Source: a virus
Virus record (IMG/VR): IMGVR_UViG_3300050132_000119
Location: 1 to 56,544 of that record
Strand: one strand, 5' to 3'
Length of the DNA stretch: 56,544 bases
Shown here one piece after another: positions 21,371 through 53,297 of this stretch. The first letter of the stretch is position 1. The number at the start of each line of letters is the position of its first letter. A program made the translations under genes and the position numbers. The notes beneath the pieces are model-generated. The model was not told the DNA's origin. It searched no databases and saw nothing but the letters and a program-made list of their open reading frames with translations.

Positions 21371-21588
21371 ATTGGTTCCCTAAAGAGGCGATACCCGATG
21401 CGCCTGTTCTCCCGCTAACAGGTCCACCATGTCAGAGATGCAATCACTGGAATCCTCAACCTACCTACTTCCATACCCCTCGGGGATTTGTAGTAGACCA
21501 TATCCAACTTTGTCATGCTGAGATGATGCACTTCGACTTCGGTTGCTTTGACGCTAAGACTCTTGCGAGTTCGATTAAGGATTCTTGA
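21367..21588 (+). CDS. Small cysteine-containing protein, last rightward gene
   Basis: A 73-residue protein with PPCQRCNHWNPQPTYFHTP, then IQLCHAEMMHFDFGCFDAK, giving a C-x2-C ... C ... C pattern that fits a small zinc site. It is the end of the rightward block. Its final 14 bases overlap the convergent late gene, and no terminator is visible there. Confidence 0.65.
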   Translation: MNWFPKEAIPDAPVLPLTGPPCQRCNHWNPQPTYFHTPRGFVVDHIQLCHAEMMHFDFGCFDAKTLASSIKDS

Positions 21589-23326
21589 GCAGCCCACTCG
21601 ACAAGAGCGACTGAGACAGTGCTCCCCGCTGTTCTGGAGTCAGTTGGATGGACCAGTTGGATGTATCCGATGGATTGGCGAAGTTCTTCTGGTACCAGTC
21701 ACTCAGGAGCATATGACGAGCCGGTACACGAAGGGCTGGGGTAGCGCCAAGCAGAGCACCCTTCAACCCTCCCGCTAGATATCCACCACCAACCCCCGCA
21801 GCGATAGCAGCCGCGTTCCCTGTCGAAGTCAGCGGTGCTTGAGTATTGACGTTGGGCTTGTTGTATTCCGGATACATGGCTCCAAACTTCCCAAGGAGCA
21901 GTTGATCCCCCTCAAGTGGGAGTTCATTCTTGTATCGATCCACGAAGGGCTTCGCGTTCACATCACCTGAGTCAGGATTTGCGAGTGCCTTGTCAACCGT
22001 GTAGTTCTGGGCGATATCCTTACGTGCCTGCAGCAAGTTTGGGACTATGTTACTCGGACCCTGATCCATCAGATGCTCGTTTACCAGATTTTCAAGTGCC
22101 TTCGATATATCAATACGGGCTTCCCCGACTGGCACATCATTGACATTGCCGCCATATTTCGTATTTGCTTGCCGATTTCCTATAGTCCGTTGCTGCTGGA
22201 TTGCGGTGTTGATTTGATCACCCGTCAGGGTAGGAACCGCGTATGCGCTAGTTGCCTGCGCAACAGTATCGTTCTGCAAAGTTGGGTCCATGCTCTGAGA
22301 CATCCCACGATCCCGATTTATCTTATCCAGAGCCAATTGGAAATTGGACGGTTGAACTACCTCTCCAGGTCTCAGAACTGTCATCGTATTGACACCAGTT
22401 GGGATATCACCGAGATTGCTGATGGGTGCGTAACCCTGAGCACCGCGTTGCGCACGTAACGTAGCCAGTGCGTCTGCGGTAACGGGAGTCCCAGCTGGAA
22501 CCCCGACACTCTCACCCGCAACCGTAGCCCGAGTGTGAGCATTCCTATAATTAGCATCCTGTTTCAGTTGACTATTGCCAGCAAGTGTCTCAAGGAGGCT
22601 GTTCGTCCAACTCGTATTTCCCGCAGCACTTGGCGGAACCACAAACCCCTTGGCTTGGGCATCGGCAAGTACCTGACTCCGAGGGGTCACGGGTGCGGAG
22701 GTGGTCTGTCTCCCCGCAGCACCCGGAGCCAAGGATGCTGCAATAGCGAGAGGCTCACTCCCTGTCAGATCGTAGGCACCCTTACCCGCAAGGGAACTCA
22801 GTACCCCACGAGTGGCCTGACCCGCTGCAGCAGAGACACTGGCTGGATTCATGATCCCTGCCAACCCAGCACCAGCGGCCTGGAGATAGCCACCCTCATA
22901 TCGCGGGTCAGACGGGTTCACCAGGGCACTGGACACGGGGTTCTTTGCGGCCTGTGCCAGGAGCCACTCGGCAGAACCCGGAGTCTGTGCCCGGTTCTGG
23001 ACCTGGAGCCAATCAGGGGGTGTTTTCCCTGTGATTGCCCGATACGGTGCTCCGATAGCCGCCTTGCCCAAGTCGTTGATATTCGCAAGAACGTCAGCTG
23101 GGTTGAAGGTGCGGACCAGGCCCCGGCCTAGACCTGTACTTACGGCGTTGGCGGCATCCAGTAGACTCCGACCGATACTCTTATCCGCAGGCGGCGCTGG
23201 GATAGTGTTGCCCGGAATGCTCTGCGCATCCAGCATCATCTGATCCACTGTGCTGGGTGCTGGACTAGCGGGTGCAGGAGAACCTCCCGCATCCAGCATC
23301 ATCTGAGTGAAGGTGTCATTTGCCAT
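21575..23326 (-). CDS. Virion/ejection-type protein with GALSQ motif
   Basis: A 583-residue Ala/Gly/Pro/Gln-rich protein. It begins with FTQMMLDAG and a second DQMMLDAQ near residue 28. Hydrophobic glycine-rich stretches occur near 150 (LQAAGAGLAGIMNP) and 520 (AAIAAGVGGGYLAGGLKGAL), and the C-terminus carries RGALSQSLL. The long low-complexity body, membrane-active-looking segments and late position suit an internal virion protein ejected with DNA. No enzyme domain was recognised. It overlaps the upstream gene by one base (TGATG). Confidence 0.6.
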   Translation of the reverse strand: MANDTFTQMMLDAGGSPAPASPAPSTVDQMMLDAQSIPGNTIPAPPADKSIGRSLLDAANAVSTGLGRGLVRTFNPADVLANINDLGKAAIGAPYRAITGKTPPDWLQVQNRAQTPGSAEWLLAQAAKNPVSSALVNPSDPRYEGGYLQAAGAGLAGIMNPASVSAAAGQATRGVLSSLAGKGAYDLTGSEPLAIAASLAPGAAGRQTTSAPVTPRSQVLADAQAKGFVVPPSAAGNTSWTNSLLETLAGNSQLKQDANYRNAHTRATVAGESVGVPAGTPVTADALATLRAQRGAQGYAPISNLGDIPTGVNTMTVLRPGEVVQPSNFQLALDKINRDRGMSQSMDPTLQNDTVAQATSAYAVPTLTGDQINTAIQQQRTIGNRQANTKYGGNVNDVPVGEARIDISKALENLVNEHLMDQGPSNIVPNLLQARKDIAQNYTVDKALANPDSGDVNAKPFVDRYKNELPLEGDQLLLGKFGAMYPEYNKPNVNTQAPLTSTGNAAAIAAGVGGGYLAGGLKGALLGATPALRVPARHMLLSDWYQKNFANPSDTSNWSIQLTPEQRGALSQSLLSSGLLKNP

Positions 23327-25251
23327 CAGAACGCTCCGATTGCTTTCAGATTCTGGACTCTGTTAAGGAACGTGGGGTCTTGCGCGGTGACAGAACCCAG
23401 ATATGCCTTGGCTGCGGGAGAGCCTGGGACCATGTGCTGATAAGTCGAGTACCGCTCGAAAAGGGTCGGATCAGCATTCTTATTGAATACCGACTCATTT
23501 TGACTATACGTTACCGGACTCAGTGCGTTAGCATGAGGTGCCAACACCGAATTCTTGGCAATGATCATATCATTCGCACCGATCAGATTCTGTGAGGTCT
23601 TATCGATCGCGTCGATTGTCATACCGGAGTTCGGATACGCAGCCTGCAGAAGTGTCTGCGCCTGGTCAGTACCTAGACCACCTGTTCTCATACGAGCAAT
23701 AATCTGTGACTCATTCTTCTTCATGACTTCGTAAGCAGTCGCCATATCGGTGGACGCCGGAAGTCCAGCCTGCGCCAACAGGTTATTCGCATAGTTCAGT
23801 TTGTCAGAGGCGGGACCAATGATCGCCTTCTTCGCCTGGTCTGCAATGCCCTTGAGGTAAGAGTTCTGAGTCTGAGCTTGCGCCACCTGAGTAGTCAGAT
23901 CCCCGAACTTGTCAATCATCTGCTTCTGGGTTCCGGTAGCGGCGCTCTCGATGCCGGGCGCAAGAGCCGGGCTCACGGGTCCGGTGGATGTCGCCATGGG
24001 GGAACCCGCTGGTGGGGGAACACCTTGAGCAGCAGCAGCTTGTAGCGCAGCGGTTGACTGAATCGGGGTTGTCCCAGAAGGACCACCGTACACCGTGGTT
24101 GGGTGGGCTGCGGCAGTACCCATCGCAGTAGCCTTAGCTGCTGTAGTAGTTGCGTCTATCCCACCAGGAATAGGAACCACAGACCAATTATCATTCGCGT
24201 CAACCACGTTCATATGACCAGCAGGTGGTGATGCGGGCGTCGTGTGAATCTTGTTGTCCGACCCGATGTACGGAGCACCCGGACGCAGTGATGTGGGTTG
24301 CAGACGAGTGTCCTTGAGATTCTTAGCTGCCATCTGAGCATTGAACTCTGGACTCCCTTGAACCATGCCACCCTGGATCAATTGCTTGGCAAAGTCGGTC
24401 AGGTCGGCATTCTTTGCATACATTCCGGCAACACCCTTACCACCATTGAACGCAATGTCCAGGCCCACTGCCCGTGGATCTACTCCACCGTTTCCAGCGG
24501 GTTGACCTGTAGGTTGTGCGATGGGTTGAACATGTGATACCTGACCCATGGGTGCTGCACCAGTGATCCCCGGAGCAGTTCCTGCGACTGTGGGTGCTCC
24601 TATTACCGGAGCCTGCGGTGTTGCAGCAGGCTGAGTGTTCGGGTCTTGAGGCACTCCCTGAACGGGTGCTCCCGGTGCAGGAGCTTGCCCATTCACCATT
24701 GCCATCCCAGTACCAAACTTCTGCCGCTCAAATTCCATGTTCTGCTGCGCAATAACCTGCTGCATGATGTGCGGCAGATACTGCATCCGAAGTTGCTCCT
24801 GCTGCTGCTTCTGTTGCTGCATGGCACTGGCTACATTACCAATCTGTTCCCCGAGTCCACCTGTCTTGGTGGCACTCCCGAATCCAGCAGCTAGAGCCAG
24901 ATACTGACCCCGCTGGTCATTCTGCGGGACATACTGGTTCAGTGCTTCCTGTGGGGACAGCATTTTGGGAGGCACCAAACCCAACATCGACTGACTCAAT
25001 GCACCTGTGGGTGCTTGCGCAGCTATCTGTTGTGCAGGAACCTGAACTGCGGCTTGACTCAATGCTCCACCTGAATTGGTATCTGGTGCAGATGTATCCG
25101 CAGGATACACATTCCCCTGCACCGGACTCGAAATACCCAGACTAGCGCTAGGACCAAATCGGAAGGTGGGACGTTCACCATTTCCGTTCTTTTCCTCATA
25201 AGCACGGAGGACATCCTGTACGGCACTAGGGAGTTCTTCAAATGATGCCAT
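23326..25251 (-). CDS. Virion/ejection-type protein, Gln/Pro/Ala-rich
   Basis: A 641-residue low-complexity protein. It contains two copies of the short motif (GGALSQAA and TGALSQSM, near residues 65-90), a Gln-rich coiled region (ASAMQQQKQQQEQLRMQYLP), a long Pro/Gly/Ala linker and a helical C-terminal domain (TQVAQAQTQNSYLKGIADQA onward). The ATG at 25251 has AAGGA 6 bases upstream and is preferred to the in-frame TTG at 25257. A role as internal core or ejection protein is inferred from composition and position. Confidence 0.6.
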   Translation of the reverse strand: MASFEELPSAVQDVLRAYEEKNGNGERPTFRFGPSASLGISSPVQGNVYPADTSAPDTNSGGALSQAAVQVPAQQIAAQAPTGALSQSMLGLVPPKMLSPQEALNQYVPQNDQRGQYLALAAGFGSATKTGGLGEQIGNVASAMQQQKQQQEQLRMQYLPHIMQQVIAQQNMEFERQKFGTGMAMVNGQAPAPGAPVQGVPQDPNTQPAATPQAPVIGAPTVAGTAPGITGAAPMGQVSHVQPIAQPTGQPAGNGGVDPRAVGLDIAFNGGKGVAGMYAKNADLTDFAKQLIQGGMVQGSPEFNAQMAAKNLKDTRLQPTSLRPGAPYIGSDNKIHTTPASPPAGHMNVVDANDNWSVVPIPGGIDATTTAAKATAMGTAAAHPTTVYGGPSGTTPIQSTAALQAAAAQGVPPPAGSPMATSTGPVSPALAPGIESAATGTQKQMIDKFGDLTTQVAQAQTQNSYLKGIADQAKKAIIGPASDKLNYANNLLAQAGLPASTDMATAYEVMKKNESQIIARMRTGGLGTDQAQTLLQAAYPNSGMTIDAIDKTSQNLIGANDMIIAKNSVLAPHANALSPVTYSQNESVFNKNADPTLFERYSTYQHMVPGSPAAKAYLGSVTAQDPTFLNRVQNLKAIGAF

Positions 25252-25260: not shown

Positions 25261-26292
25261 TTATTGAGGCTGAGTGCCAGGAGCCGGGGTCGTACCATTC
25301 GAGTTTAACCCTTGAGCCAGATAGTAGGCAGCAGCCGCGCTACTGAGAGCCCCTGGACCATAGGCACTTGCGGGACCGTTACTCGTACTCGTGACAGCAT
25401 TGGGCAACTGCATCCCGCTTGTCAGACTCGCCTCGTTCTGCAACTGGGTCCAGGGCTGCGTGAGCGCTGTATTCGCATTGGACAGGTCAGTGTCGTAGCC
25501 TTTTTGTTGGAGTGCCTGCTGCTGGTTACCCGTAGCCAGCAGATTCGCATTGTCCGTGTTACCCAGAGCCTGTGCAGTCTGAGTCAGCGCGCCCGTCTGA
25601 CTTGCGCCGGTACTCAGGGCACTCGTGGTATCGTTTGCGCCCGTGAGAGCCGCAGTCGCCTGGATCTGACCCTGTTGCTGTGTTCTGTTGGCATCTGCGG
25701 CAAATGCGTTTTGAGCCTGACCATATCCGGCCTGAAGGGCACTGCTCTGTTGACCCGTGATATCGTTGGATGCCTGTACTGCCGCCTGACCCAGTACATC
25801 GGCATTCCGGGTGGACCCGAACTGACCAGAACCGATCATGGAGGCATTGACTCCCGGCATGATGGTTTCATTCCAGTTCCGAGCACCCAGTCGTGCGATG
25901 TTGTCAGTCACCGCAGAGGTATACGGACTCATGTACTTGGCCGCAGTACCCGCGTCCCAGGTCTGTGCGGGTCCAGCAACAGCATCCTGAGCCGAGTTGA
26001 CCAGACTTGTGGCAGCGGGAGCAATCTGATTCGTCAGACCCTGAGCCGCAGACATTCCCGGTTGCCACGTACCCTGCATATCCGCAGTCTGCTGGAACGC
26101 CTGAGTCTGAGTCGGATTGAACCCCGCAACGCTGGCCTGGGGGAGAGGCTGCTGCAGATTATTCTGTGCGAGTTGAGAACCCTGATCCGCAAGGTTCTTC
26201 GTATACTGTTGGTACCAGGCAGGCAGATCCTTGTTTGTGGCGGAGCTTGTGTCAATGGCCGCGCCGGGCGATCCTGTAGTCAGATTAGCCAT
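25261..26292 (-). CDS. Virion structural protein with GALTQ motif
   Basis: A 343-residue Ala/Gln/Asn/Thr-rich protein. Recognisable segments are PAWYQQYTKNL near the start, KYMSPYTSAVTDNIARLGAR (a motif I have seen in podophage structural proteins) and TGALTQTAQAL. It looks mostly helical without a stable globular core. Its start overlaps the end of the upstream gene. A role in the internal core or tail is likely but unproven. Confidence 0.62.
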   Translation of the reverse strand: MANLTTGSPGAAIDTSSATNKDLPAWYQQYTKNLADQGSQLAQNNLQQPLPQASVAGFNPTQTQAFQQTADMQGTWQPGMSAAQGLTNQIAPAATSLVNSAQDAVAGPAQTWDAGTAAKYMSPYTSAVTDNIARLGARNWNETIMPGVNASMIGSGQFGSTRNADVLGQAAVQASNDITGQQSSALQAGYGQAQNAFAADANRTQQQGQIQATAALTGANDTTSALSTGASQTGALTQTAQALGNTDNANLLATGNQQQALQQKGYDTDLSNANTALTQPWTQLQNEASLTSGMQLPNAVTSTSNGPASAYGPGALSSAAAAYYLAQGLNSNGTTPAPGTQPQ

Positions 26293-27190
26293 TTAGACCA
26301 CCTTTCATGTAGCTGAGGGCACCCTGAGCAGGTGGAGCAATTTCACCATTCGGGGCAGCGCGTTTCTGAGCCCGGAGTTCTTCGCGTAATTGGTCGAGTT
26401 TTGCAGCACCTGCTGAATTGTTCCCATCACCCAACATCGCCACAGACTCTGCATCCATGACGTATTCGCCACCGGAGAGCTTGGCGTCAATCAAATCAGC
26501 CTGACCCCCGCTGTCATCGGAGACGTAACCTACAAAGGGTTGAGCTTGGGTCAGAGGTCCATTGCCAGGTACTTCACCCCCCTCGGCGAACTTCTTCGGA
26601 GGAACCACGATGGGGTTGGACACCGCAGAGTTGAACTGATACGGCTGCACAGCACGAGGAGCCTGAGTCAGGGCACCCACACCAGGTGTGACGCTGGACG
26701 GCATAGCTGCTGCACTGGTCCGCTGAATCTGGTTACCCGACCGGATCGGGGTCTGCATGGCGGACATCTGAGCCTGAGTGAAGGCACCGGGGGTGTTACT
26801 CGGTTGCTGCGATAGAAGCTGAGTAGCGGATTTGGGGTTGTAGGCTGGGGAACTCAGGGAACCGTATAAGCTCATCGCACCCAGACCTAGCCCTGCGAGT
26901 TGAGATCCAGTCAGGCTCAGGCCAGTCAGAGAGTTGAACCCCTTGACCAGATCGGTTGACCATGGTGTCCCACTGGACGCGGCACCCGCAAAGTTCGAGG
27001 GATTGGTAGCATAGTTCGGGAGCCCTGTGGCAGTATCGATTGCCATGGGATCAACTGTGGGATTCGCAGCCCCTCCAGTCGTGGATGTATTATTTGTAAT
27101 CGATGGGTCTAAGTAACCTGCGGGGGCCGTGCTTCCACCCGATCCGTCATCGTACAGATAATTACCTTCAGTGTCGTAGATAGCTGCCAT
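26285..27190 (-). CDS. Virion-associated protein with FAEGGEV / GPLTQ module
   Basis: A 301-residue protein. The C-terminal third has the recurrent phage segment DAKLSGGEYVMDAESVAMLG, followed by a helix (KLDQLREELRAQKRA). Upstream are GVGALTQAP and the composite FAEGGEVPGNGPLTQAQ. The N-terminal half is Gly/Thr/Ser-rich. Its motif content links it to the proteins at 49843-53297. The function is unknown. Confidence 0.62.
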   Translation of the reverse strand: MAAIYDTEGNYLYDDGSGGSTAPAGYLDPSITNNTSTTGGAANPTVDPMAIDTATGLPNYATNPSNFAGAASSGTPWSTDLVKGFNSLTGLSLTGSQLAGLGLGAMSLYGSLSSPAYNPKSATQLLSQQPSNTPGAFTQAQMSAMQTPIRSGNQIQRTSAAAMPSSVTPGVGALTQAPRAVQPYQFNSAVSNPIVVPPKKFAEGGEVPGNGPLTQAQPFVGYVSDDSGGQADLIDAKLSGGEYVMDAESVAMLGDGNNSAGAAKLDQLREELRAQKRAAPNGEIAPPAQGALSYMKGGLNG

Positions 27191-27194: not shown

Positions 27195-27437
27195 TTACCT
27201 CACTGCGCCAATAAATTGCTCTGCCCAGCGCTCCCAATCGTCAAAGTTCTCGGCAGAAGGAATATTCATTGCCACGAGTTCTGGCACATGAAACAGCGCA
27301 CATACCCATGTCTTCCATGAATCGTCATTATACGGGGCTGCGACCCCATATTTCGCCAATTGTTCTGCAACAACTGCGCCCCATTCGCTGAATTTTAATC
27401 CTTTTGGTTCAGGAAGGAAGGAAGTTGTGGTTTTCAT
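27195..27437 (-). CDS. Small late protein
   Basis: An 80-residue protein (FSEWGAVVAEQLAKYGVAAP, then WVCALFHVPELVAMNIPSAE). I recognise this as a recurrent small protein near podophage tail genes, without known function. Its ATG overlaps the stop of the tail hub gene (ATGA). Confidence 0.65.
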   Translation of the reverse strand: MKTTTSFLPEPKGLKFSEWGAVVAEQLAKYGVAAPYNDDSWKTWVCALFHVPELVAMNIPSAENFDDWERWAEQFIGAVR

Positions 27438-29395
27438 TCAGTGGATCTTTCATCGCCAAGGGATAGTTTTGTCATGATTTGACCCTGTTCAAAGAATCCC
27501 CCAAGGGTATTTGATACGAATTGCAGTTTCAGAATCCGGGCCTGGTCCACAGTATCCTGGAATGAATTACTCGGACTCAGATTGTAAGAATTCAGCACAA
27601 GATTATCATCCTGAGCAAAAGAGCGACCCAGGACATTGAGAGTAATATCCCCGACCTGATTCAGATCGGGCTCTACCCGCTCCACCCGAGTCATGATGTC
27701 CACGGTCTTGGGCACATCGTCGTAAGGTGAGCCAATTGCAAACCCGATGTTACAGGATGTAAACGAACTCTCGATGGTCGTAGTTTCCTGACCCACGGTC
27801 TTGTCGTATCCATATTCATGCTGATACTGGCATACGAGAGTCTGTGCGACGGGGGTAGATTGGATATTCGCTGTGGCACCCGCGATTCCGGTAATCGTCT
27901 CTCCGCTGACAAATATACCCGTGACGCTCTTGACGCTGATGCTGTTGGTCAGCACCCGAGCGGCAATGCCCGTGGCAGCAGAGGTTCCCCCGGTTACCGT
28001 GTAACCATCCGCAAATGCCGTGGTCATGCTGGTGAAGGACAATACCGCACCTGACGCCACTCCTGTGGTATTGGCGCTCAGAGTGACCGTGGTCCCCGTA
28101 TGGGAGGATACCGTGGTCCCGTTGGGGATACCAGTTGACCCACTAGCCACCATCCCATTCACCACTCCCGTAGTATCGATGAAGGTCAGTACCGCAGAAC
28201 CCGTGAGCGTGGCAGCAGAAGTCGTGAGTCGCAGTCCTGTAGTCAGGAGCATCGTGTCGATGGGGTCTTCATGACCAGCCCATACCGGGAAGCTGAACAC
28301 GCCAGTCGGGGCACCCGCTGTCCGCTTCTTCACGGCATCGTACCAAGTGTTTTCTCGGTAGTTGTAGATGATCGCGTTACCGCACTCGGTGTCCGTTCCC
28401 GCAGGATAGAACCACCAAATCTCGCCCCATCGAGCCACCTTGGTACCCCACACCTTATTCTGGTGAGCATAGTTCAGATTGTCGAAGAAGTAGTTCTGAT
28501 TCATCTGGTTCGGAACCTCTTGAACCACACCCGTATAACACAGGAACCGGTCGGTGCCGGGCCAGTAGAACCTGCCGTCATGCTCCACGACTGCCTTCTT
28601 GCTCAGTATCGTGGTGGGGGAGGCCAGAGTGTCATACTGCCAGATACCAGTACCTCCAATGAAGGACACGCGAATGAGGGAGTCCAGTGCCCAGAACAGA
28701 CCTGCGGGAGCCTGAGCACCCCCTCGAAGGGGGGCACCATAGATAATCTTGGTCCCGGCTACGTTGTTCGATGAGGCGTAGTTTCCCCCGCCTGCAGTCC
28801 AACCGGATGCGGTAGAGAAGTCGTTGGCGTTGGTATTTCGGATGAGTCCATTGGAGCCGTACACGAACAGGAAGGGCTGCAGGACACAGAGCCCACCACT
28901 GACGGAAATGGGTCCAGAACCGTCACTAACTTGAACAAGTGGGTCATTTGAGGCAATATTCCCCGCGTAAATGCCTCCACCACTGTCATTAGAAATATTC
29001 ATCACATCGGGAGTGGATGCCGCAATGATCGCAGAATACGCGCCTCCGGTGCTGGAGTACATCGCAGCATGGGACCAGTTCAGGGTTGGATCGGTCGTGA
29101 ATCCTGAAGGGGTCCGGTCCTCGATATTCCCGGATGCCCCGGTACTGTCAAACTGGATTCGCTGGATACCCCATTGGCTGAACAGATGGGTCGAGTTGAT
29201 CCCGGAACGTGAGTCCAGCATCACGGAGCGCACGGGAGCATTGGCGTACCGCGTCATGGCTCGGTAACCACCCATCTTGCGAACCCTACCTCGGTTCCAG
29301 CGCACCCACTCCCCATCCGAGAAGTAGGAGGTGTCCAGGTCCGTACCATCGCGGCGGACACCGGGTTGACTCTTGAACTCGTATAGATCGTCCAT
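27434..29395 (-). CDS. P22 gp10-like tail hub / DNA stabilisation protein
   Basis: A 653-residue protein. The N-terminus (GVRRDGTDLDTSYFSDGEWV, then GRVRKMGGYRAM) and the body (GRFYWPGTDRFLCYTGVV, YFFDNLNYAHQNKVWGTKVA, GEIWWFYPAGTDTECGNAII) match podophage tail-hub or packaged-DNA stabilisation proteins. Residues of about 375-520 are a Thr/Gly/Ser-rich insertion with a repeated VNGMVASGSTGIPNGTTVS type beta module, probably an exposed Ig-like domain. It would sit below the adaptor ring. Confidence 0.75.
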   Translation of the reverse strand: MDDLYEFKSQPGVRRDGTDLDTSYFSDGEWVRWNRGRVRKMGGYRAMTRYANAPVRSVMLDSRSGINSTHLFSQWGIQRIQFDSTGASGNIEDRTPSGFTTDPTLNWSHAAMYSSTGGAYSAIIAASTPDVMNISNDSGGGIYAGNIASNDPLVQVSDGSGPISVSGGLCVLQPFLFVYGSNGLIRNTNANDFSTASGWTAGGGNYASSNNVAGTKIIYGAPLRGGAQAPAGLFWALDSLIRVSFIGGTGIWQYDTLASPTTILSKKAVVEHDGRFYWPGTDRFLCYTGVVQEVPNQMNQNYFFDNLNYAHQNKVWGTKVARWGEIWWFYPAGTDTECGNAIIYNYRENTWYDAVKKRTAGAPTGVFSFPVWAGHEDPIDTMLLTTGLRLTTSAATLTGSAVLTFIDTTGVVNGMVASGSTGIPNGTTVSSHTGTTVTLSANTTGVASGAVLSFTSMTTAFADGYTVTGGTSAATGIAARVLTNSISVKSVTGIFVSGETITGIAGATANIQSTPVAQTLVCQYQHEYGYDKTVGQETTTIESSFTSCNIGFAIGSPYDDVPKTVDIMTRVERVEPDLNQVGDITLNVLGRSFAQDDNLVLNSYNLSPSNSFQDTVDQARILKLQFVSNTLGGFFEQGQIMTKLSLGDERSTE

Positions 29396-30024
29396 TAGGG
29401 CCTTGTGAATACGGTGGTGCGGTCTGCCATGCGCTCAGAGTTCTCGGTCTTGAGGCCACCTGTGGCGGACTGATAAGCATCCTCCCAGGTGGACTGGCGA
29501 GTAGCATTCTTGGTGAACCGACACGCCTCCACCATGCAGGCGGCAAAGAGAGCCTGTGGTGCGTTCAGGGTCAGCCAGTTGCTGTCATTCGCGGCACTCA
29601 GAGGCTGGAGTCGGGCGTAGTAGACCAACTCGAATGTGAATGCTGTAACGGGTGTAGGACCGAACAGGAAGTGCGTGGCGTTGTAGTCCGCATAGAACCT
29701 GGGGTTATCGGACAGGGTGGGGTTGGGCCAGTAGTTTCTCACGTACTCCAGGGGGCGCAGGAACAGAGGTGTACTGGCTCCTGCTGCATTGGTGTAATTG
29801 AAGCTGATCGTCTCTTTCCAGAAGGCGGGTTTCGCCATGCTACTCGATGTGGGCAGAGTCCCGGTCACCACAGACTGGAACCCCTGCTGCTTCATTTCCG
29901 TGGCTAGGCGGTTCTCAGCCAGAGAAATGAATGTGGGTATCTGCGCTGCGAATGCGGTGTCGGTTCTCTCGTTCCACTGCGGTAGGAGAGTCAGAAGCTG
30001 TGTGTAGCTGAAGTCCTGCATCAT
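29395..30024 (-). CDS. Head-tail adaptor-like protein
   Basis: A 209-residue protein with a helical N-terminus (FSYTQLLTLLPQWNERTDTA, FISLAENRLATEMKQQGF), a central beta part (PLFLRPLEYVRNYWPN) and a C-terminal helix (NAPQALFAACMVEACRFTKN). This layout matches the SU10-type/P22 gp4-like adaptor family that rings the portal. Its start overlaps the spanin stop. Confidence 0.68.
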   Translation of the reverse strand: MMQDFSYTQLLTLLPQWNERTDTAFAAQIPTFISLAENRLATEMKQQGFQSVVTGTLPTSSSMAKPAFWKETISFNYTNAAGASTPLFLRPLEYVRNYWPNPTLSDNPRFYADYNATHFLFGPTPVTAFTFELVYYARLQPLSAANDSNWLTLNAPQALFAACMVEACRFTKNATRQSTWEDAYQSATGGLKTENSERMADRTTVFTRP

Positions 30025-34525: not shown

Positions 34526-34750
34526 TTATATTAGCGGTTCGTCCGGTCGTGGGTATCTCAGAGTAATATTCTCACTCGCCCTTGCAGGTAATCTCCAAGG
34601 ATCAAGGTCATCCGCGCATTCCGGGCACACCCGTAACCCTGGAGCATTCCGATCTGCAACCAATTTACTATAAGGCTGCTTTGTCTTGCACCTATCGCAT
34701 ACCGCTATGGCCCGAGATGCAAAACTTGAGGTGTCAAGGTAAAGGCTCAT
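34526..34750 (-). CDS. Small zinc-ribbon protein
   Basis: A 74-residue protein with two CxxC pairs, VCDRCKTKQPYSKL and LRVCPECADDLDPW, the layout of a zinc ribbon. It is a recurrent small gene between tail and fibre genes in podophages. Its start overlaps the upstream stop (ATGA). The role is unknown; a structural zinc site in a tail component is possible. Confidence 0.75.
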   Translation of the reverse strand: MSLYLDTSSFASRAIAVCDRCKTKQPYSKLVADRNAPGLRVCPECADDLDPWRLPARASENITLRYPRPDEPLI

Positions 34751-41720: not shown

Positions 41721-42027
41721 ATTTTCCTCCGAACATCAGTTTCTCGGCCTGACCATAGGCCAGGTATCCCGCAATCTTGTTTTCAGCATCCTCTTGGGCA
41801 TACTTCTGTCCAAGGTTCAGATCGAACTTGGTGGGATCAGCACAGGAGGATTCACCAATCACAGTGAATCCATTGGTCAGGGTGACACAGCAGACCATGT
41901 GACTGGTGCCCCGGAATAGGTGAAACTCGAATCCCTTGATGGAATTCTGGATCTGTTTTTCCGTGATTGACAGACAGATAGGTTCCGGGGTTTCGGTGAA
42001 TTCATCGGTGACGAGTTTGATGCTCAT
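41710..42027 (-). CDS. N4 gp49 / Sf6 gp66 family protein, copy B
   Basis: A 105-residue protein with CCVTLTNGFTVIGESSCADP, then TKFDLNLGQKYAQEDAENKI, the same core as the protein at 40393. Two diverged copies flanking the scaffold suggest an old duplication with separate roles. It overlaps the GroES-like gene by ATGA and the scaffold by 11 bases. Confidence 0.8.
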   Translation of the reverse strand: MSIKLVTDEFTETPEPICLSITEKQIQNSIKGFEFHLFRGTSHMVCCVTLTNGFTVIGESSCADPTKFDLNLGQKYAQEDAENKIAGYLAYGQAEKLMFGGKYEH

Positions 42028-42470
42028 GTCAGATGACTCCGCACTTGAGTCACATCACCCGTGTAAGCGCCAATCAGATCAGCGTCACTCAGGATTGCCA
42101 GCATCACGGGTTCCAGACCATCTTTCAGGTCCACGGTCCAGCGGTCGCCACCCCATCGAGGGACTTTCACGTAGTCCCCGACTTTGGCCCAAACCCCCTC
42201 GGGCCACTCTTCACCCGTTGTACGCTTCTTGAAGGAAAGCGGACCCACTGAGATCAGTTTGGCGACTTGACCGTTGTAGGATTCCTCATCTTTCGTACCC
42301 GTGGACAAAATGATTCCGCTGGACGTTTTCGCCACGACCCTGCGGATCTGGACCACGACCCTATGCCCGAAGGGGGTGAATTCGGGGTCGATGTAAGGGA
42401 ACATCTCGTCGATGCTCTTGTCCGAAACATCGAGTCCGCGCCCGTGTGGGTTGATGACTTCGCCTGCCAT
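42024..42470 (-). CDS. GroES-like co-chaperonin
   Basis: A 148-residue protein with the Cpn10 pattern: FTPFGHRVVVQIRRVVAKTS, SGIILSTGTKDEE (the mobile-loop GIIL anchor), YNGQVAKLISVGPLSF and KVGDYVKVPRWGGDRW. Phage Cpn10 proteins (T4 gp31 is the model) replace host GroES so that GroEL can fold the coat protein; the place next to scaffold and capsid genes agrees. It is longer than host GroES at both ends. Confidence 0.8.
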   Translation of the reverse strand: MAGEVINPHGRGLDVSDKSIDEMFPYIDPEFTPFGHRVVVQIRRVVAKTSSGIILSTGTKDEESYNGQVAKLISVGPLSFKKRTTGEEWPEGVWAKVGDYVKVPRWGGDRWTVDLKDGLEPVMLAILSDADLIGAYTGDVTQVRSHLT

Positions 42471-42646
42471 TAGATTGCTCCTTCCGTTGATGTTGAGATG
42501 CCTTGCTGAGCGTAAGCCCGCAAAGCGCGATTCAGTTTCTTGTATTGCCGAATACCCATGTACGCCACTTCCTTGCGGCGCTGTTGGCGTTCAGGGGTTG
42601 CAGTGTGTTGGTTGTGCCAAGCCGCAGATTTGGGTTTCTTGCTCAT
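42470..42646 (-). CDS. Small basic protein
   Basis: A 58-residue, strongly basic protein starting MSKKPKSAAWHNQHTATPER, then QQRRKEVAYMGIRQYKKLNR. ATG 42646 overlaps the stop of the Tad2-like gene (ATGA). It may bind nucleic acid by charge. No family was recognised. Confidence 0.6.
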   Translation of the reverse strand: MSKKPKSAAWHNQHTATPERQQRRKEVAYMGIRQYKKLNRALRAYAQQGISTSTEGAI

Positions 42647-43119
42647 ACCAGTACCCAGTCTTCGGAGAGTACATCCGTCTGAGACGCAAGCCATGGGACA
42701 AACTTGCAGTCAGCGGTACGCATTCCGATCCACGGCAGAGTCAGCAATGAGTCATCATCCATTCCGGGTACATCTTCCGAAACTTGCCACTGCGCAGCCT
42801 GAATCAGGGACAACCACATCCCTTTACCGTTCCAACCAGCACGAGCAACCTTGTTACCCATCTTCAGGGATTCAATCGCAAGACCAAATGACATACCAGT
42901 CGTGGACCTGTACGCAGCATCAAACTGTTCCTTCGGACTCCAGCTAATATAACCGCTGTGGCGCGAGTCATTACCCTTACCGCCATCAGTATATTCAACC
43001 AGATAACCATCGTCCGAACCATCCTCATCGAGAGGCAGGGTCCAGTTTCGATAGTTGTTGTAGTCCAATCGGGTCATGGGCGTAGCCTCAACGACCTTTG
43101 TACCAATGTACCGTTTCAT
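42643..43119 (-). CDS. Tad2-like (DUF2829) protein
   Basis: A 158-residue protein. Residues of about 75-158 are a DUF2829 domain: MSFGLAIESLKMGNKVARAG, WNGKGMWLSLI, LPWIGMRTADCKFVPWLASQ, then LSEDWVLV. DUF2829 members include Tad2, which binds the cyclic ADP-ribose-type signal of the Thoeris defence. The N-terminal 72 residues are a second domain (MKRYIGTKVVEATPMTRLDY, SGYISWSPKEQFDAAYRS) often fused to it. AGGAG before ATG 43119 fixes the start. Whether this member binds a nucleotide signal is untested, and its late-cluster location is unusual for an anti-defence gene. Confidence 0.8.
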   Translation of the reverse strand: MKRYIGTKVVEATPMTRLDYNNYRNWTLPLDEDGSDDGYLVEYTDGGKGNDSRHSGYISWSPKEQFDAAYRSTTGMSFGLAIESLKMGNKVARAGWNGKGMWLSLIQAAQWQVSEDVPGMDDDSLLTLPWIGMRTADCKFVPWLASQTDVLSEDWVLV

Positions 43120-43178
43120 CAAAAGTTCTCCTACAGAACCACCCCAATATGACCGTGGGGCACTCGGCATTGAACGAA

Positions 43179-46793: not shown

Positions 46794-47024
46794 CTAGGCG
46801 TTGAACAATGCCCGAGCGTGTGCAATAATTGTCGCAAATTCAGCTTGCACACCGTCGTCTAACTTGGCTGCTTCAGCCTCAACCTCCTGCCACAATGACA
46901 GATGAGGCTGCACTGCAGCCAGGGCACTGGCACTCGCAGCAGCTTTTGCCACAACAGCGTCTAGTGCAGCCTGAGCATCGATTACTGCCTGAGCGTCTGC
47001 AGCGGATTGTTCGGTAAGTGTCAT
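46794..47024 (-). CDS. Small Ala-rich helical protein
   Basis: A 76-residue protein that is almost one helix (AQAVIDAQAALDAVVAKAAA, HLSLWQEVEAEAAKLDDGVQ). It overlaps the end of the portal gene by ATGA, so their synthesis is coupled. It may be a core or portal-associated protein. Confidence 0.6.
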   Translation of the reverse strand: MTLTEQSAADAQAVIDAQAALDAVVAKAAASASALAAVQPHLSLWQEVEAEAAKLDDGVQAEFATIIAHARALFNA

Positions 47025-49846
47025 TTGGAAATCTCCTGTTTAAGAACTGATTCAACCCCGATATTATTTCCGGCAGCATCCTTGATGTACCGGGCAACCC
47101 TTGGTGCGGAATGCGCGATATGAATGCCCGCAAGTCCTTCACCCAACTGAGATAACATTCTCTCAGTATTACCTTGCATTTGGTCAATTATAGGTTGAAT
47201 TACGCTGGCAATATCAATTGGTTGAGGTACCGCAGCAGCAACCTGTGACTGAAGTGCTGCTTGGAGCACCGCAAGTTGAGAATCATTATCCGCGCGACGT
47301 TGATCTCGTTCCAATTCAGCCCGTGCCGCATCATCTGCCCGCTGCTTCTCCTGCTGTGCCTGGAACATATCCATTCTTTGCTGCATTTGAAGTGCATGAC
47401 TTTCGATTGCCGTTGCCATGGTAGTAGCCCGATCATCTGCGTCTTGCTGAGTGCCAATCTTCCATTGTTCAAACTGCTGCTGCTGCTGCGCCATCTGGAC
47501 CTTGTAGTCACGGTCCCGTTGAGACTCATTGGCCTTGAATGCGAGTTGTGCCTGCTCAGATTGAGCCTTAGCCTGCATCTCCTGAGCATCCGTAGCAGAT
47601 TTAGCCTGACCCTTAGCTGCTTCGATAGCCTGCTGACCGGCGATCTGAGCCTGTACATCGGGGTTAACGGGAGGTTTGGGTGCGAATTGTTTCGCAAGTT
47701 GTTGAGCCTGCGTCATCGCTGGCATGATCATGGGAGCCAGAATCTGAGCCATCATCTGGTCTGCAAATGCCGCTCCCTTGGACTCAGCCTGTGCTCGGGT
47801 CATTTGGGCACCCATACTCGGAGCAATCATCTGCATCGCATCGGCAGCACCGTGGGTATGCTTCTTGTAGAAGCTCATCAAGTGGTCCTTCAGGTGCGGC
47901 ATCAGGGGACCAAAAGCCACAGTCCCCACGAGGGGGTTGGCACCGAAGATGGGACTGACAAGGAAGTGCAGATGCGCTTCTAGGTGGGATACGTCATCCT
48001 GCTCGTCGTAGACCTTCAGGGGTGCGGCATCCTCGGAGCAGACCATATAATTCTCATCCAACGCACTCATGCGCCGGGCATCCTTGGGCAGATTCGCCAG
48101 GTCGTCGGGAGAATTGATCTGAAGGAGGCGCAAGGCACGCTGCAGCAAGCGGTCCGTCTTGAAATACTGCTTCAGGTCCGGGTTTCCGGCCAACTGCATG
48201 ACCGCCTGTAACTGAGCGTAACGCTGGGCTTCGCTGAAGATGTTGGGATCGGACACCGGGATAATGTCCATCGGACCCTGGAAATCCTGCCGACTGACAA
48301 CCAGTTCACCCAGTTCCTCAATCGTTTCCTCGTCCGTCATATTCTCGGCATCCAGACGATGCAGAATCTCAAGCTCCTTCTTCAGGGAAGCATGGCAACG
48401 GGCGTGAATGGCGCTGAAATTGACTGATCCATGCTCAATCAGGGCAAGAGCCGTACCCACCGGCATGTCGTTGGATGAGCCCGAGATTGCCTCAGATGCC
48501 GTGGAAATAACCCCTTCGGCCTGGTTCGTGAGCCATTCAAGCAAGTTGAACAGGACGGGAGAGGGTCCGGCAAACGGGAACGGCATGACCACCTTACGGA
48601 TGTCATCTACACCCGGTGGGCAGTCAATCTCGGCTAATTCTGTCGCATTGACCTGGATACTCTGTCCTGCGGTACGCCCACCCTTGAGCTTCAGGCCACC
48701 GGGGAAGTTGCTGATGTGCGCCGAGTCGAGTAGGGCACGCAGGGCTCCAGTGCCCCCAGCAGATAGGGAGCCGATCAGATGAAATAGGCCAACACCCTGA
48801 GCACCGCGCCATGGGATGAAGTTGTACTCCACCATCCAGTGTTTCTTGGCTTGCTGTTCATCATCTTCCTTCCAGTTCCGGTAGAGCCCGAGCACCTTCT
48901 GTGTATCGTTCTCGATATGCAGGATGTAGGGTGCAGTCTTACCCTCAGTGTGGGAATCTCCTTCAATCGGGAGGTCCACGTAACTCATGTAGATTTCACG
49001 CAAGCCCTCATCATTGTAGGCGGTGTCATCCTCGTCATTACCCTCGATCCGCTCATTCGCCTTGCGGGATTCTGACTGATCGCTGAATCCGGGAGGTGTG
49101 GTGGATGAGTTGACATCCCGGTAAAGACCTGAGTCAATCCGGTTCTCATACTCATCCTTGGCGACATACTGGCGATGAGTGACACGGCGGCAGGTATAGA
49201 AGTCCGTTGCGTCATAGGGCATGAACACATCGTCGATGTAGACCGTCTCGGTGCGGGGGCGATCTAGATGGGCATCCCACCACCAGCGCTTATACTGCGA
49301 ACCACCCAGGGGTAACTGACTCAGCAGGCGCTCAAACTCAGCCCGTTGCTCTTGCACTCGGGTCGTGAGTTGCCAGTTCATGTAGTTCTTTTTACGCTCG
49401 GCCTTGTCCACCTTGACATCGTTGGCTTCACCGATGATCTGTGTCTTGCAGGGTCCGGTAGCAGGGAACAGTTCTTTGATGGCGCGGGATGCAAAGTCCA
49501 CGCAGCCCTTGGCAAGCATGGGGTGAACCGCCTTGCTGGACCCATCGAACCCGGCACCTCCGGGAGCATCAGCCCCCAGACCCGTGCGGCGGATACCCTC
49601 AGCATACTGTTTGTCACGGGCGGCACGACTCTCACGATCCGAATCAATCAGTTCTGCCTGATCGGTACCCAATGAGGCAAGGAATCCTTCGGGTAAATAT
49701 TCTGCCAGATTCTCGCTGAAATCAGCAGATTCGTAGGCTTCGTCATCCTCGGGCAAACTCACCAGAGCTGAACCGTCATCCTGTTCCTCCACGCCAAACT
49801 CGGCGGAATCTTCTTCAGGAGTTTCCAACTCGGGTTGATCGTTCAT
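47021..49846 (-). CDS. Portal protein
   Basis: A 941-residue protein in the expected place beside terminase and scaffold genes. An acidic N-terminus is followed by RRTGLGADAPGGAGFDGSSK, AVHPMLAKGCVDFASRAIKE and LFPATGPCKTQ; the body holds QVNATELAEIDCPPGVDDIR and EWLTNQAEGVISTASEAISG, as in large P22-type portals. The last 250 residues are Gln/Ala-rich helix (QMAQQQQQFEQWKIGTQQDA), which would form the barrel reaching into the head. It overlaps the upstream virion gene by ATGA. Confidence 0.85.
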   Translation of the reverse strand: MNDQPELETPEEDSAEFGVEEQDDGSALVSLPEDDEAYESADFSENLAEYLPEGFLASLGTDQAELIDSDRESRAARDKQYAEGIRRTGLGADAPGGAGFDGSSKAVHPMLAKGCVDFASRAIKELFPATGPCKTQIIGEANDVKVDKAERKKNYMNWQLTTRVQEQRAEFERLLSQLPLGGSQYKRWWWDAHLDRPRTETVYIDDVFMPYDATDFYTCRRVTHRQYVAKDEYENRIDSGLYRDVNSSTTPPGFSDQSESRKANERIEGNDEDDTAYNDEGLREIYMSYVDLPIEGDSHTEGKTAPYILHIENDTQKVLGLYRNWKEDDEQQAKKHWMVEYNFIPWRGAQGVGLFHLIGSLSAGGTGALRALLDSAHISNFPGGLKLKGGRTAGQSIQVNATELAEIDCPPGVDDIRKVVMPFPFAGPSPVLFNLLEWLTNQAEGVISTASEAISGSSNDMPVGTALALIEHGSVNFSAIHARCHASLKKELEILHRLDAENMTDEETIEELGELVVSRQDFQGPMDIIPVSDPNIFSEAQRYAQLQAVMQLAGNPDLKQYFKTDRLLQRALRLLQINSPDDLANLPKDARRMSALDENYMVCSEDAAPLKVYDEQDDVSHLEAHLHFLVSPIFGANPLVGTVAFGPLMPHLKDHLMSFYKKHTHGAADAMQMIAPSMGAQMTRAQAESKGAAFADQMMAQILAPMIMPAMTQAQQLAKQFAPKPPVNPDVQAQIAGQQAIEAAKGQAKSATDAQEMQAKAQSEQAQLAFKANESQRDRDYKVQMAQQQQQFEQWKIGTQQDADDRATTMATAIESHALQMQQRMDMFQAQQEKQRADDAARAELERDQRRADNDSQLAVLQAALQSQVAAAVPQPIDIASVIQPIIDQMQGNTERMLSQLGEGLAGIHIAHSAPRVARYIKDAAGNNIGVESVLKQEISK

Positions 49847-51792
49847 TTCGTACCCTTGGGTGTATTCTGCTTAACCATTCCAAGAGCCTGGGGAAGGGTA
49901 AGCGTTCCATTGGACTGATCCACTAATGCCTGAGCCATAGGCATTAGTTTATTTTCGTCGATTGTAGCACCAGGATTCAGGAAGCTCAAATCTACAGCAG
50001 GTAAGTGGTTTGCCTGCTGCTGCGGGAGTGGTGCAATTGTCTGAGTTGGAGTTACTGTTGACTTTGGTGTAACGGGTACATTGGGAATTACTGGGGCGTT
50101 CGGTATTGCTCCAGAGGGTGTTTCCACCGGAGGTAATCCGGCTTCCGCAGGGACTTGACCATAGAGAGTACCACTGAGAGGTGCTTCCCCTGGGGTAGTC
50201 TGAGTACCATCCGCCAATCGACCGTCTGTGGGATTCGAGTTATCCTGAGTTCCCGTGACAAATACGGTACTCAGATTAGGAACCCCACCACCCATATCCG
50301 GGCTAGTCTGGGTTCCATTCGCCAAGCGACCATCTGTGGGGTTGGAATTAGGATCTGCGATAGCCTGAGTCAATGCTCCTGGGGCATTCAGTGCAGAATC
50401 AGCAGCGGCATTATTTGCAATCGTAGTCGGATCAAACTGAGCCAAGTAATCAGGACTGCTGATATTATCAGGGAGTGCATAGGCAGCAGGGTTTTGGTTT
50501 GGTCCATCAGTCAGCGACAGCGCGTCTGCAGTAGCCTGAGTGTCGCTGACTGAAGATGAGGGGTCTGACGAGTTGATAGCTTGAGTCAATGCTCCACCAT
50601 ATTTACTTGCAGTGCCGAGCCCCGCACCGATGATGCTTAACGGGTTGCCGCTGTTGATGGCACGAGCATCGTTGTACACCGTATTCATATCCGAGGTCTT
50701 CACCCCACCAATATCTGAGGGTACTTGGCCCGAGGCATTGGCACCACTGATGAATGCATTCAGGTAATCCCCATGGGCGGCGGAGTTGGCGGCATTGATA
50801 CCAGAGGCAACATCGCCATAACCAGCAAGCCCTACAGCACCCGAGAGCGCTCCGATAGGATTACCGTTTGCCAGTGAGTTGGCGATCTGAGCGCCCTGGA
50901 TAAAGGGTTTGGCTGTGGTGTATGCCGACTGGAGGCTGGATAGGGCACCGGTACCACCTGTAGCTGCAGTAGTGCCCCCACCTAGCGCTGACCCAGCGGC
51001 ACCGATGGAGTTTGCCCCAGCACCCGCATCGGCGGCAAGATCCATACCGGATACGGCTGCTCCACCGGCACCTCCTAGGAAAGCCCCGGCAAGCGCACCC
51101 CCAGATACAGCAAGTCCACCAGCCATGGCGATGTCGGCTAGAGGAACTTTGTTCCAGAAGTTATCCACTGAGCCCCAGAAGCCACCTTCTGCTTGAGGTG
51201 CAGCCTGAATCCCTGCATCAGCACCCTTGTTAGTGTAATACTGAGTTGCCCCATTCGGAGCAGCAACCTGGAATGCTGACGGTAACACCTGACCATCTGC
51301 TGCAGTAGATCCCGCCATCTGAGGAATCCACTGGAGTCCGGGAGTATTTGCTATCGCCGCGACACCAGGATTCGCTTTCAGGTAGTCTTGGTACCCTGCT
51401 GCGGTCTGTGCTGCGGTCGGTTGGGTATAAGTAGTGGTATCGGGCGCATACGTGGCTACATCGCCATTCAGACCTGTGTATTCACCGGGAACAGTGGTCG
51501 TGGTCCCTAGCGCCTGATATTCTGGCGTACTACTGAACCAATCTGGTACCGTGACAGGACGATTGTTGTCCGCGGCTGAGGATAAGGTGGGCCTTGCAGT
51601 GAGTGCGCTACTAGATTGAGTCACGACGGGAGCCGAGATAGCCTGAGTCAGGGCACCCTGAGATGACTGCTGACCACCCAGCATCGAATCGACCTGAGCC
51701 TGGCTGTAATCGTTCATCATGTCACCGACACTGGAGTACCCCATCTGGTCAGCCAGTTGGGATGTGGCGAGTTGTGATGCGCTGAGGCTCAT
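49843..51792 (-). CDS. Virion/ejection-type protein with three GALTQAI motifs
   Basis: A 649-residue Ala/Gly/Ser/Asn-rich protein. It has the motif three times (SSQGALTQAIS, YGGALTQAIN, APGALTQAIA), a glycine-rich hydrophobic centre (MAGGLAVSGGALAGAFLGGA) and a duplicated segment SNPTDGRLANGTQT / SNPTDGRLADGTQT near residues 490-530. The C-terminus is short and helical (PMAQALVDQSNGTLTLPQAL). It lies between portal and ART genes, which suits a protein loaded into the head. No enzyme domain was recognised. Confidence 0.62.
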   Translation of the reverse strand: MSLSASQLATSQLADQMGYSSVGDMMNDYSQAQVDSMLGGQQSSQGALTQAISAPVVTQSSSALTARPTLSSAADNNRPVTVPDWFSSTPEYQALGTTTTVPGEYTGLNGDVATYAPDTTTYTQPTAAQTAAGYQDYLKANPGVAAIANTPGLQWIPQMAGSTAADGQVLPSAFQVAAPNGATQYYTNKGADAGIQAAPQAEGGFWGSVDNFWNKVPLADIAMAGGLAVSGGALAGAFLGGAGGAAVSGMDLAADAGAGANSIGAAGSALGGGTTAATGGTGALSSLQSAYTTAKPFIQGAQIANSLANGNPIGALSGAVGLAGYGDVASGINAANSAAHGDYLNAFISGANASGQVPSDIGGVKTSDMNTVYNDARAINSGNPLSIIGAGLGTASKYGGALTQAINSSDPSSSVSDTQATADALSLTDGPNQNPAAYALPDNISSPDYLAQFDPTTIANNAAADSALNAPGALTQAIADPNSNPTDGRLANGTQTSPDMGGGVPNLSTVFVTGTQDNSNPTDGRLADGTQTTPGEAPLSGTLYGQVPAEAGLPPVETPSGAIPNAPVIPNVPVTPKSTVTPTQTIAPLPQQQANHLPAVDLSFLNPGATIDENKLMPMAQALVDQSNGTLTLPQALGMVKQNTPKGTK

Positions 51793-53297
51793 GATCCCAC
51801 CCCCGAATCCGCCATCTGACCCATGAACGCATGATCATCCGGGGTCAGCGTCATGGGGTCCGTGTGTTGGAGAATGTGGTGACGGATCATGTGGTCCAGG
51901 AGGACCAGGCCACCTTTGGCGAAGGGTTGGGGTGGGGTGTCTGCTATCATATTTGATGTTTCCGGACCCGTGGGTGCTGTGGTTGCGGAGGGTGGGACGT
52001 TCCCCGTGGGCACACCATTCCGATACAAGATAGTCAGATTCCTTTCTTCTCCGGGGAATACGACATAGTTTGAGGTTCCCGTTCCCGCACCTCGTGAACC
52101 GCCATCCAGATACTTGATTCCAGGGATTCCTTGGTCACTCAGAAACTGAGACGCCGCTGCCCTACTACCGAACTGAGATGCCAAAGTATCGTACGCCTGT
52201 TGTCCCGAGGTGCCTTCAGGTGTTATTGCTCTACTCGCAATTGGCCCAAGTACTGGGTGAGTCAGTCGTGTGGGAAACTGGTCATTAAGGCGTTGCTGGA
52301 TTCCAGCACGTTCCGCAACATCCTGAGTAATGGCGGGATGATTTATCAGTAGTGCCTGTACGTCAGGATGCTGATCACTCAGAGGTTTATCCCAATCAAG
52401 CATCTTGGCGATGTGGGTGTCAGGAGTATCCACCTTGTAGAGTGAGCCAAGGTTATTAAGTGCAGCCTGGGTCCGAGGGTCGATATCGTATTGCGCGGGG
52501 TTGCGAAGGAGTTGCTGAACTGCCTGATGGGGATAATCAAACCCAAAGTTACCTTCACTCTGCACAGAATCAAGTAATTCGCGTTGAGGGGGCGTCAGTG
52601 AGGTGTCTTGAGCAATTAGACGAGATACGTCTGAATAATCATCATCGGGACCATAGATACCCTTAATCTTGCTGATTAGAGCCTTATCGGATAGTGCAGT
52701 CTGATATCCACCCGCAACCACAGGATTCTCAGCCAAGTACAGCCCATGTCCATAAGCCTGAGCCCCCTCACCCGTTCCAATCTTGGAGGCATCGAATGCG
52801 TCAAAGTTGTGTGGGGAACCATGCCAAGTAATTGCACCCCTCTGCGCTGCCAGTGACCCAGACGGAACCATCTTCTCCGCAGCCATAGCGGTAGCGAGTC
52901 CCTTGAGTCCGGGGAGCATCTGCAGCGCAGTACCAATAGGGAATGTCATCGCGGCACCCTGTTTACGGGCATCGTAACCAGGCTCCATGACCGATCCTTC
53001 GAGTTGATCAGGTGCGGTACCCATGAGCCCGGCAAGAGCGCCATAAACGCGGGGGAGGGATTCTCTGAGATTACTATTGTCCACATCACTCGGCAAAACA
53101 TTGGTCTGAGTGAGCAGATTCCGGGATTGGGTCAATGGACCTTGGACAGGGCCACCGGAAGCGAAATTCTTAGCCTTTTTGTCAGCGTTGAAGAATTCCT
53201 GACCCACGGAGACCGGGACTCCTGCCTTTCTCGCAAACCGTGGATCGTGCGCGATAGCGGCCATGAAATCATGCTGCGGTTTACTTTTGCTGGGCAT
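51789..53297 (-). CDS. Virion protein with ADP-ribosyltransferase domain (ART-PolyVal type)
   Basis: A 502-residue protein. Residues of about 155-420 match the ADP-ribosyltransferase domain of phage polyvalent proteins: GAITWHGSPHNFDAFDASKI (H159), GTGEGAQAYGHGLYLAE, YKVDTPDTHIAKMLDWDKPL, and GIPGIKYLDGGSRGAGTGTS followed by NYVVFPGEE, which may hold the catalytic acid. The first 60 residues carry FASGGPVQGPLTQS, the same motif module as other virion proteins here, and FAKGGLV occurs near the end. Position between terminase and portal suggests packaging in the virion and delivery to the host. Confidence 0.75.
   Translation of the reverse strand: MPSKSKPQHDFMAAIAHDPRFARKAGVPVSVGQEFFNADKKAKNFASGGPVQGPLTQSRNLLTQTNVLPSDVDNSNLRESLPRVYGALAGLMGTAPDQLEGSVMEPGYDARKQGAAMTFPIGTALQMLPGLKGLATAMAAEKMVPSGSLAAQRGAITWHGSPHNFDAFDASKIGTGEGAQAYGHGLYLAENPVVAGGYQTALSDKALISKIKGIYGPDDDYSDVSRLIAQDTSLTPPQRELLDSVQSEGNFGFDYPHQAVQQLLRNPAQYDIDPRTQAALNNLGSLYKVDTPDTHIAKMLDWDKPLSDQHPDVQALLINHPAITQDVAERAGIQQRLNDQFPTRLTHPVLGPIASRAITPEGTSGQQAYDTLASQFGSRAAASQFLSDQGIPGIKYLDGGSRGAGTGTSNYVVFPGEERNLTILYRNGVPTGNVPPSATTAPTGPETSNMIADTPPQPFAKGGLVLLDHMIRHHILQHTDPMTLTPDDHAFMGQMADSGVGS

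Follow-up and report, generated by a model that had tools for sequence, protein, structure and literature searches.

A short conserved motif shared by phage ejection-module proteins and its putative role in docking during head assembly

The late genes of the phage studied here raise the question why six proteins encoded at two separate places carry copies of one short peptide, G-[AP]-L-[TS]-Q-[AST], and what this peptide may do. The sequence analysed (called the window for simplicity) is the complete IMG/VR record IMGVR_UViG_3300050132_000119 (G000) of 56,544 bases, which is possibly a fragment; a GenBank search returned no near-identical phage. Its gene order is partly syntenic with that of the Roseobacter phages CRP-901/902 and of metagenomic phages. 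Genes A, B, C and D follow one another and adjoin a structural gene, while G and H are placed between portal and terminase; all six genes and all ten motif-bearing sites are on the minus strand. The ten copies reported for these six genes in a preliminary description were recovered without exception (Table 1). The sole further match in a six-frame scan lies in a 62-residue plus-strand frame at 18578, and no other plausible gene matches. The major capsid and portal proteins are free of the motif, and the looser core G[AP]L[ST] has one further match each in 34747-35757 and in the GroES-like gene of the window.

Table 1. Motif copies, related sites and genes discussed in the text (positions in the window; residues counted in the encoded protein)
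Feature	Position	Strand	Remark
GALSQS, A residue 568	21608..21625	-	15 residues before C terminus
GALSQA, B residue 62	25051..25068	-	
GALSQS, B residue 83	24988..25005	-	21 residues from the copy at B residue 62
GALTQT, C residue 234	25576..25593	-	within helical repeat; probably no docking site
GALSSA, C residues 314-319 (C-tail site)	25336..25353	-	aligns with conserved SPLSQLA tail in relatives
GALTQA, D residue 172	26660..26677	-	
GPLTQA, D residue 211	26543..26560	-	conserved linker site, GG[AP]LSQ in relatives
GALSYM, D residues 290-295 (D-tail site)	26306..26323	-	SPLAYL in relatives, GPLSYI in L062
GALTQA, G residue 46	51640..51657	-	
GALTQA, G residue 400	50578..50595	-	
GALTQA, G residue 472	50362..50379	-	
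GPLTQS, H residue 53	53124..53141	-	N-terminal linker preceding ART-like domain
Second shared peptide NPTDGRLANGTQT in G	50305..50343; further copy 50197-50235	-	present too in the D protein of L062
Protein A	21575..23326	-	583 aa; last ejection-module gene, from gene order and A homologues
Protein B	23326..25251	-	641 aa counted from ATG; ejection-module protein
Protein C	25261..26292	-	343 aa; phrog_4287 DNA ejection protein
Protein D	26285..27190	-	301 aa; unstructured N part and conserved GEYVMDAE C-terminal domain
Protein G	49843..51792	-	649 aa; largely low-complexity, flanked by portal and H
Protein H	51789..53297	-	502 aa; ADP-ribosyltransferase-like, probable ejected effector
Virion structural proteins	27434-29395 and 29395-30024		
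Scaffold-like ORF	40794-41720		coiled-coil, acidic; upstream of capsid gene
Portal	47021-49846		
TerL	53340-54953		

Homology and gene order suggest that the motif-bearing proteins are probably internal (ejection) proteins. Protein C matched the phrog_4287 profile (E=1e-8) over residues 15-314, i.e. most of its length, and D matched the phrog_5448 profile (E=4e-4). The C-terminal domain of D is also found among tape-measure-like proteins, the A proteins of some relatives contain an apparent lytic transglycosylase domain, and the major capsid protein of the window resembles Mu gpT/phrog_4523. For B, an upstream TTG at 25257 is a possible alternative start, giving 643 aa. A PDB sequence search detected no relatives of C, D, H, portal, capsid or A-type proteins, and Foldseek runs with the weak AlphaFold models of C and H gave no significant match. 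The description of all six proteins as low-complexity proved loose: it suits G, and it does not suit H with its ADP-ribosyltransferase-like region or C, which is predicted to be helical.

Composition predicts 0.04 matches in the whole proteome and 0.02 in the six proteins versus 10 observed, in agreement with the earlier estimate of far fewer than one, and 2,000 residue shuffles, the control proposed at that stage, yielded at most two. When the five position classes were reordered (120 orderings), the motif order gave 10 matches, the runner-up 3 and the others 0.24 on average. Because the pattern had been chosen by eye, the look-elsewhere effect was addressed by an unbiased scan of all degenerate five-residue patterns (n=4,725). 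G-[AP]-L-[ST]-Q ranked first among them by the number of distinct proteins, with a score of 7.99 versus maxima of 5.6-7.44 across 20 local shuffled proteomes. The evidence from the window is strong for copy number and modest, only just past chance, for the number of proteins, so that the case rests on copy number and on conservation in relatives.

Relatives were gathered with HMMs of C and of the C-terminal domain of D. Homologues of C were found at 122 loci and both genes at 116 loci, of which 57 were non-redundant at 70% C identity; the counts below use 56 relatives. G[AP]L[ST]Q did not occur in the 693 neighbouring proteins of these relatives (196,591 aa, 0.9 expected), and the wider form [GS][AP]L[ST]Q occurred there 3 times versus 2.3 expected. 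The same wider form was present 23 times in the C tails (0.27 expected), 8 times in the C-terminal regions of D (0.09 expected), 10 times in the remainder of D (0.64 expected) and 6 times in B and A combined (1.0 expected). In the module proteins the enrichment is therefore strong. Pure composition as the cause of the recurrence was ruled out by the shuffles, the permutations and the 693-protein control; the permutation control fails within C, where there are helical repeats.

Three sites are fixed and homologous across relatives: the C terminus of C (SPLSQLASG in relatives), the D linker (GG[AP]LSQ, flanked by an [FYKL]A-x-GG stretch on one side and the GEYVMDAE domain on the other) and the D tail (KSPLAYLKG in relatives, QGALSYMKG in the window phage and QGPLSYI in L062). 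Since S-P-L, G-P-L and G-A-L all occur at the one homologous D-tail site, the alignment shows directly that they are interchangeable forms at the level of sequence. At both the C tail and the D linker, two sites without mutual homology, the motif is extended to LSQ[LIV]A. At the homologous D-linker and C-tail sites, Gln is often replaced by A, M, N or S and the next residue is mainly I, L or V. Judged from these alignments, [GS]-[AP]-L-[ST] forms the durable core, and the Gln and the following small residue are a dialect, or preference, of the window phage. Near the N-terminus of B, the paired copies of the window have a counterpart in L062 (GALSQV and GPLSQV, 24 aa apart) with diverged, unrelated flanks; the B proteins of the two phages also have a homologous stretch (57% over 70 aa). 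Conservation of the motif in homologues, which had been named as a check, was observed: its position is held at the B N-terminus (window and L062), the D linker and the C tail despite divergence of the flanks.

The variation at these sites bears on the suggestion in the preliminary description that the motif is a processing site. A head-maturation protease could cut it after Gln (L-[ST]-Q|[AST]), much as T4 gp21 cleaves internal proteins behind a short motif of its own. Prohead protease sites have Leu or Ile two residues ahead of the cut and a small residue behind it, a general form that the motif of the window resembles. Moreover, the T4 internal proteins and Alt are gp21 substrates (PMC7411985), and a cut at residue 53 of H would release its ART-like domain. 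The residues on both sides of the supposed cut are, however, not conserved where the motif is, which makes cleavage after Gln unlikely; L062 even has GPLSR, GPLTE and GPLTN. A scan of late genes recognised none as coding for a head protease, no cleavage is evident, and the motif-free capsid and portal proteins also speak against processing, which we consider improbable.

Outside the fixed sites, the motif recurs in unstructured parts of D proteins from other, unrelated lineages, namely SPLTQVAQE three times in L081, GALTQA twice in L170 and once in L169, and GALSQV and GGLSQA in L160. Similar sequences are found near the C terminus of A in L066, L198, L160 and L172 (GGLSQLGG, GALSQLGG, GALSTLGG and GGLSSLTG). 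Direct searches for relatives of B and G, and for more relatives of the D protein of L062, yielded nothing outside L062; the C-terminal part of G is related to the N part of this D protein, and the two have a second peptide, NPTDxRLA[ND]GTQT, in common. Such shared modules indicate exchange between genes and are what would be expected if the copies were merely remnants of an ancestral linker, or of duplication or shuffling among low-complexity virion genes, with no present function. One finding at the DNA level points the same way: codons vary between copies overall, as had been noted, except that one 18-mer (GGTGCCCTGACTCAGGCT) is the same in D172 and G46. Against common descent as the sole explanation stand the unrelated flanks, which average 28% identity in DNA (maximum 41%) and 9% in protein, and the persistence of the C and D sites across very divergent phages, for which selection is needed. 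We regard it as improbable. The same flank values uphold the earlier view that the motif is no duplicated DNA element.

The main rival to a docking role is a structural one, in which the motif is a favoured N-cap that joins short helices in Ala/Gln/Ser-rich filamentous proteins, gives the ejection proteins their own form and has no common partner. It fits protein C. Both C sites (residues 234 and 314-316) are at predicted helix starts in a low-confidence AlphaFold model (pLDDT 63, pTM 0.28), and the C relatives contain, around the position of C234, an 18-residue helical repeat of the QTAGQLTGQQ type that includes GxLT. Within the C body the motif order does not stand out from its permutations, and the counterpart of the C234 copy in G003 reads GALGQT. 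The C234 copy appears to belong to this repeat and is probably ordinary, with no docking function; we left it out of the docking claim since the C body fails the permutation control owing to these repeats. Beyond C, the helix-start explanation fares less well. In D outside its C-terminal region, B and A taken together, the motif order ranks first of the 120 orderings (16 matches versus a mean of 1.9), the stretches around the copies in B, G, D and L081 are rich in Pro, Ala, Gln and Ser and give no hint of long helices, and an N-cap preference should be visible in the 693 other proteins, none of which contains G[AP]L[ST]Q. We consider it doubtful but still credible as an account of the whole set.

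The complete relatives closest by terminase (G003, G004 and CRP-901/902) had been expected to retain the exact motif, and the full five-residue form is missing from all of them. In G003 (60% TerL) the core alone, GALS-x, is present 11 times versus 3.1 expected, mainly in module proteins and in the products of genes that separate terminase from portal. The core is enriched in CRP-901, yet is not restricted to the module there, and G004 and the Caulobacter phage GB2A have little or no core enrichment.

Protein H is the informative case, because 81 homologues of its ART-like region are without the motif and have other N-termini; the H linker with the motif is absent from them. The motif of H therefore looks as if a tag had been added to an effector. 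H is probably an ejected, ADP-ribosyltransferase-like effector: it matched Pfam ART-PolyVal (E=0.0025, 19.0 bits, below the gathering cut-off of 31.2), and an invariant HGSPH..GTGEGAQAYGHGLY block is common to H and 26 homologues. H homologues occur in many phage contigs. The AlphaFold model of H is weak (pLDDT 58, pTM 0.41), and its best PDB structure matches were not significant. Polyvalent or injected phage effectors with ART domains have been predicted to be packaged (PMC5512222). H is similar to these in its weak match to ART-PolyVal and its position among virion genes, and differs from polyvalent proteins in being small, with one recognisable domain and a Pfam score below the curated cut-off.

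Taken together, the short motif of these ejection proteins is real and conserved, and docking in head assembly is its most likely role. The docking reading rests on the motif being short, present in multiple copies, located in flexible regions and at protein ends, surrounded by diverging flanks and limited to proteins that are probably co-packaged. The earlier docking-peptide proposal stands in that the motif, in the window phage as in the 56 relatives, is restricted to module proteins and keeps its position where flanks diverge; it needs amending in that the core is [GS]-[AP]-L-[ST], Gln is dialect and the C234 copy is a residue of a helical repeat. We give about an even chance to the full version, in which the peptide acts as a short linear motif for docking and one shared procapsid partner co-loads A, B, C, D, G and H. 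The motif, i.e. the core, one residue that may be Gln or another, and next, as a rule, a hydrophobic or small one, would be carried by internal proteins across a large, mostly uncultivated phage group. A single procapsid assembly partner would bind it, gathering the six proteins in the head around the portal prior to DNA packaging, and in the window phage the motif would have been multiplied within flexible regions (three copies in G, two in B and two in D). The motif-tagged H would thereby be packaged and ejected along with the DNA.

Such a partner could be the scaffold or the inner core. In P22, the ejection proteins gp7, gp16 and gp20 are described as co-assembling with the scaffold during procapsid assembly (PMC12005531), and for this reason the scaffold-like ORF, put forward from its position and composition, is the first candidate. 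The part of that source considered here mentions no shared linear motif for gp7, gp16 and gp20, and the comparison is one by description.

Another likeness is found in T4, where a short capsid targeting sequence (CTS) is present on the otherwise unrelated internal proteins IPI, IPII, IPIII and Alt, which are packaged and ejected (PMC3012670, PMC7411985), Alt being an ADP-ribosyltransferase brought into the head by this shared sequence (PMC3012670, PMC7411985, PMC5512222). In both phages a short peptide is common to otherwise unrelated proteins that are internal or, in the window phage, probably so, one of them an ADP-ribosyltransferase or similar to one; the parallel between H and Alt is one of proposed function, not of homology. 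Unlike the T4 CTS, which is N-terminal, occurs once per protein and is removed by gp21, the copies of the window are internal or C-terminal and number up to three per protein (Table 1). The encapsulins offer a second comparison. Many of their cargo loading peptides contain G-S-L, which faintly resembles G-A-L-S. These peptides have about 10 residues, occur at either end of varied cargo and suffice to bring it into a shell of the HK97 fold (PMC7355545). The motif is likewise a short peptide carried by different proteins, whereas encapsulin peptides are terminal, one per cargo, and serve a bacterial compartment shell; the window copies are mostly internal and repeated, with only that of A near a terminus among the ten, and with the C-tail and D-tail variants terminal. 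The best reading is that the motif acts like the T4 CTS or the encapsulin cargo peptides and belongs to neither. A search of open-licence papers found no description of it.

Apart from T4 and P22, little is understood of how podoviruses select the proteins loaded into their heads. A bolder idea, which we think distinctly unlikely, is that [GS]-[AP]-L-[ST] serves as a transferable code for packaging, which alone sends proteins, effector enzymes among them, into the heads of a broad group of short-tailed phages. If this were true, the code would bind a single conserved site, located on the scaffold or the shell, and packaged and injected effectors would become predictable from sequence. The motif may also prove useful for tagging foreign proteins so that they are loaded into phage heads. 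Its presence on ejection proteins, its conservation where the rest of their sequence diverges and its presence on a probable effector make it a testable packaging signal and a potential predictor of injected proteins in uncultivated phages.

A second peptide, NPTDxRLA[ND]GTQT, is shared by two proteins: two copies lie in the mostly low-complexity protein G, and several related copies are found in the homologue of the ejection-module protein D from the relative locus L062. These copies are close to the first motif (G-[AP]-L-[TS]-Q-[AST]). The sequence [FY]A-x-GG also recurs in internal proteins, i.e. in D, in the ADP-ribosyltransferase-like protein H (51789-53297) and in many relatives, frequently directly upstream of the GxL motif; the two might together form a more extended linker signature that includes [FY]A-x-GG. 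In the relative locus L226, the homologues of D and of the DNA ejection protein C are extremely Cys-rich, with runs such as CSCCCSCCCSCCC, a property not shared by the other relatives in this analysis; they may be disulphide-rich internal proteins or the product of a reading anomaly.

Coordinates of the additional features
Feature	Location	Strand	Remark
NPTDxRLA[ND]GTQT in G	window 50305-50343 and 50197-50235	-	two copies
C and D homologues	L226 (MW202545.1) 18832-20070 and 20074-21993		Cys-rich
Endonuclease VII/HNH-type protein	window 37223-37909	-	E=6e-21
GroES-like co-chaperonin	window 42024-42470	-	conserved
Tad2-like (Thoeris anti-defence) domain protein	window 42643-43170	-	strong domain match, E=9.8e-23
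Pentapeptide-repeat protein	window 1-738	+	incomplete ORF
TerL with insertion	IMG/VR 3300020045_007673 53663-56281		873 aa

The Endonuclease VII/HNH-type gene immediately adjoins the major capsid gene, the GroES-like gene is kept in the structural cluster of this phage and its relatives, and the Tad2-like gene is located within the late structural cluster. At the edge of the record, the truncated ORF encodes numerous tandem A-[DN]-L-x-G pentapeptides (e.g. RGADL, GDANL and YGADL). The terminase (TerL) ORF of a related phage contains an insertion which begins with CFVGNTKIRKADG, ends with VLVHNC and looks like an intein.
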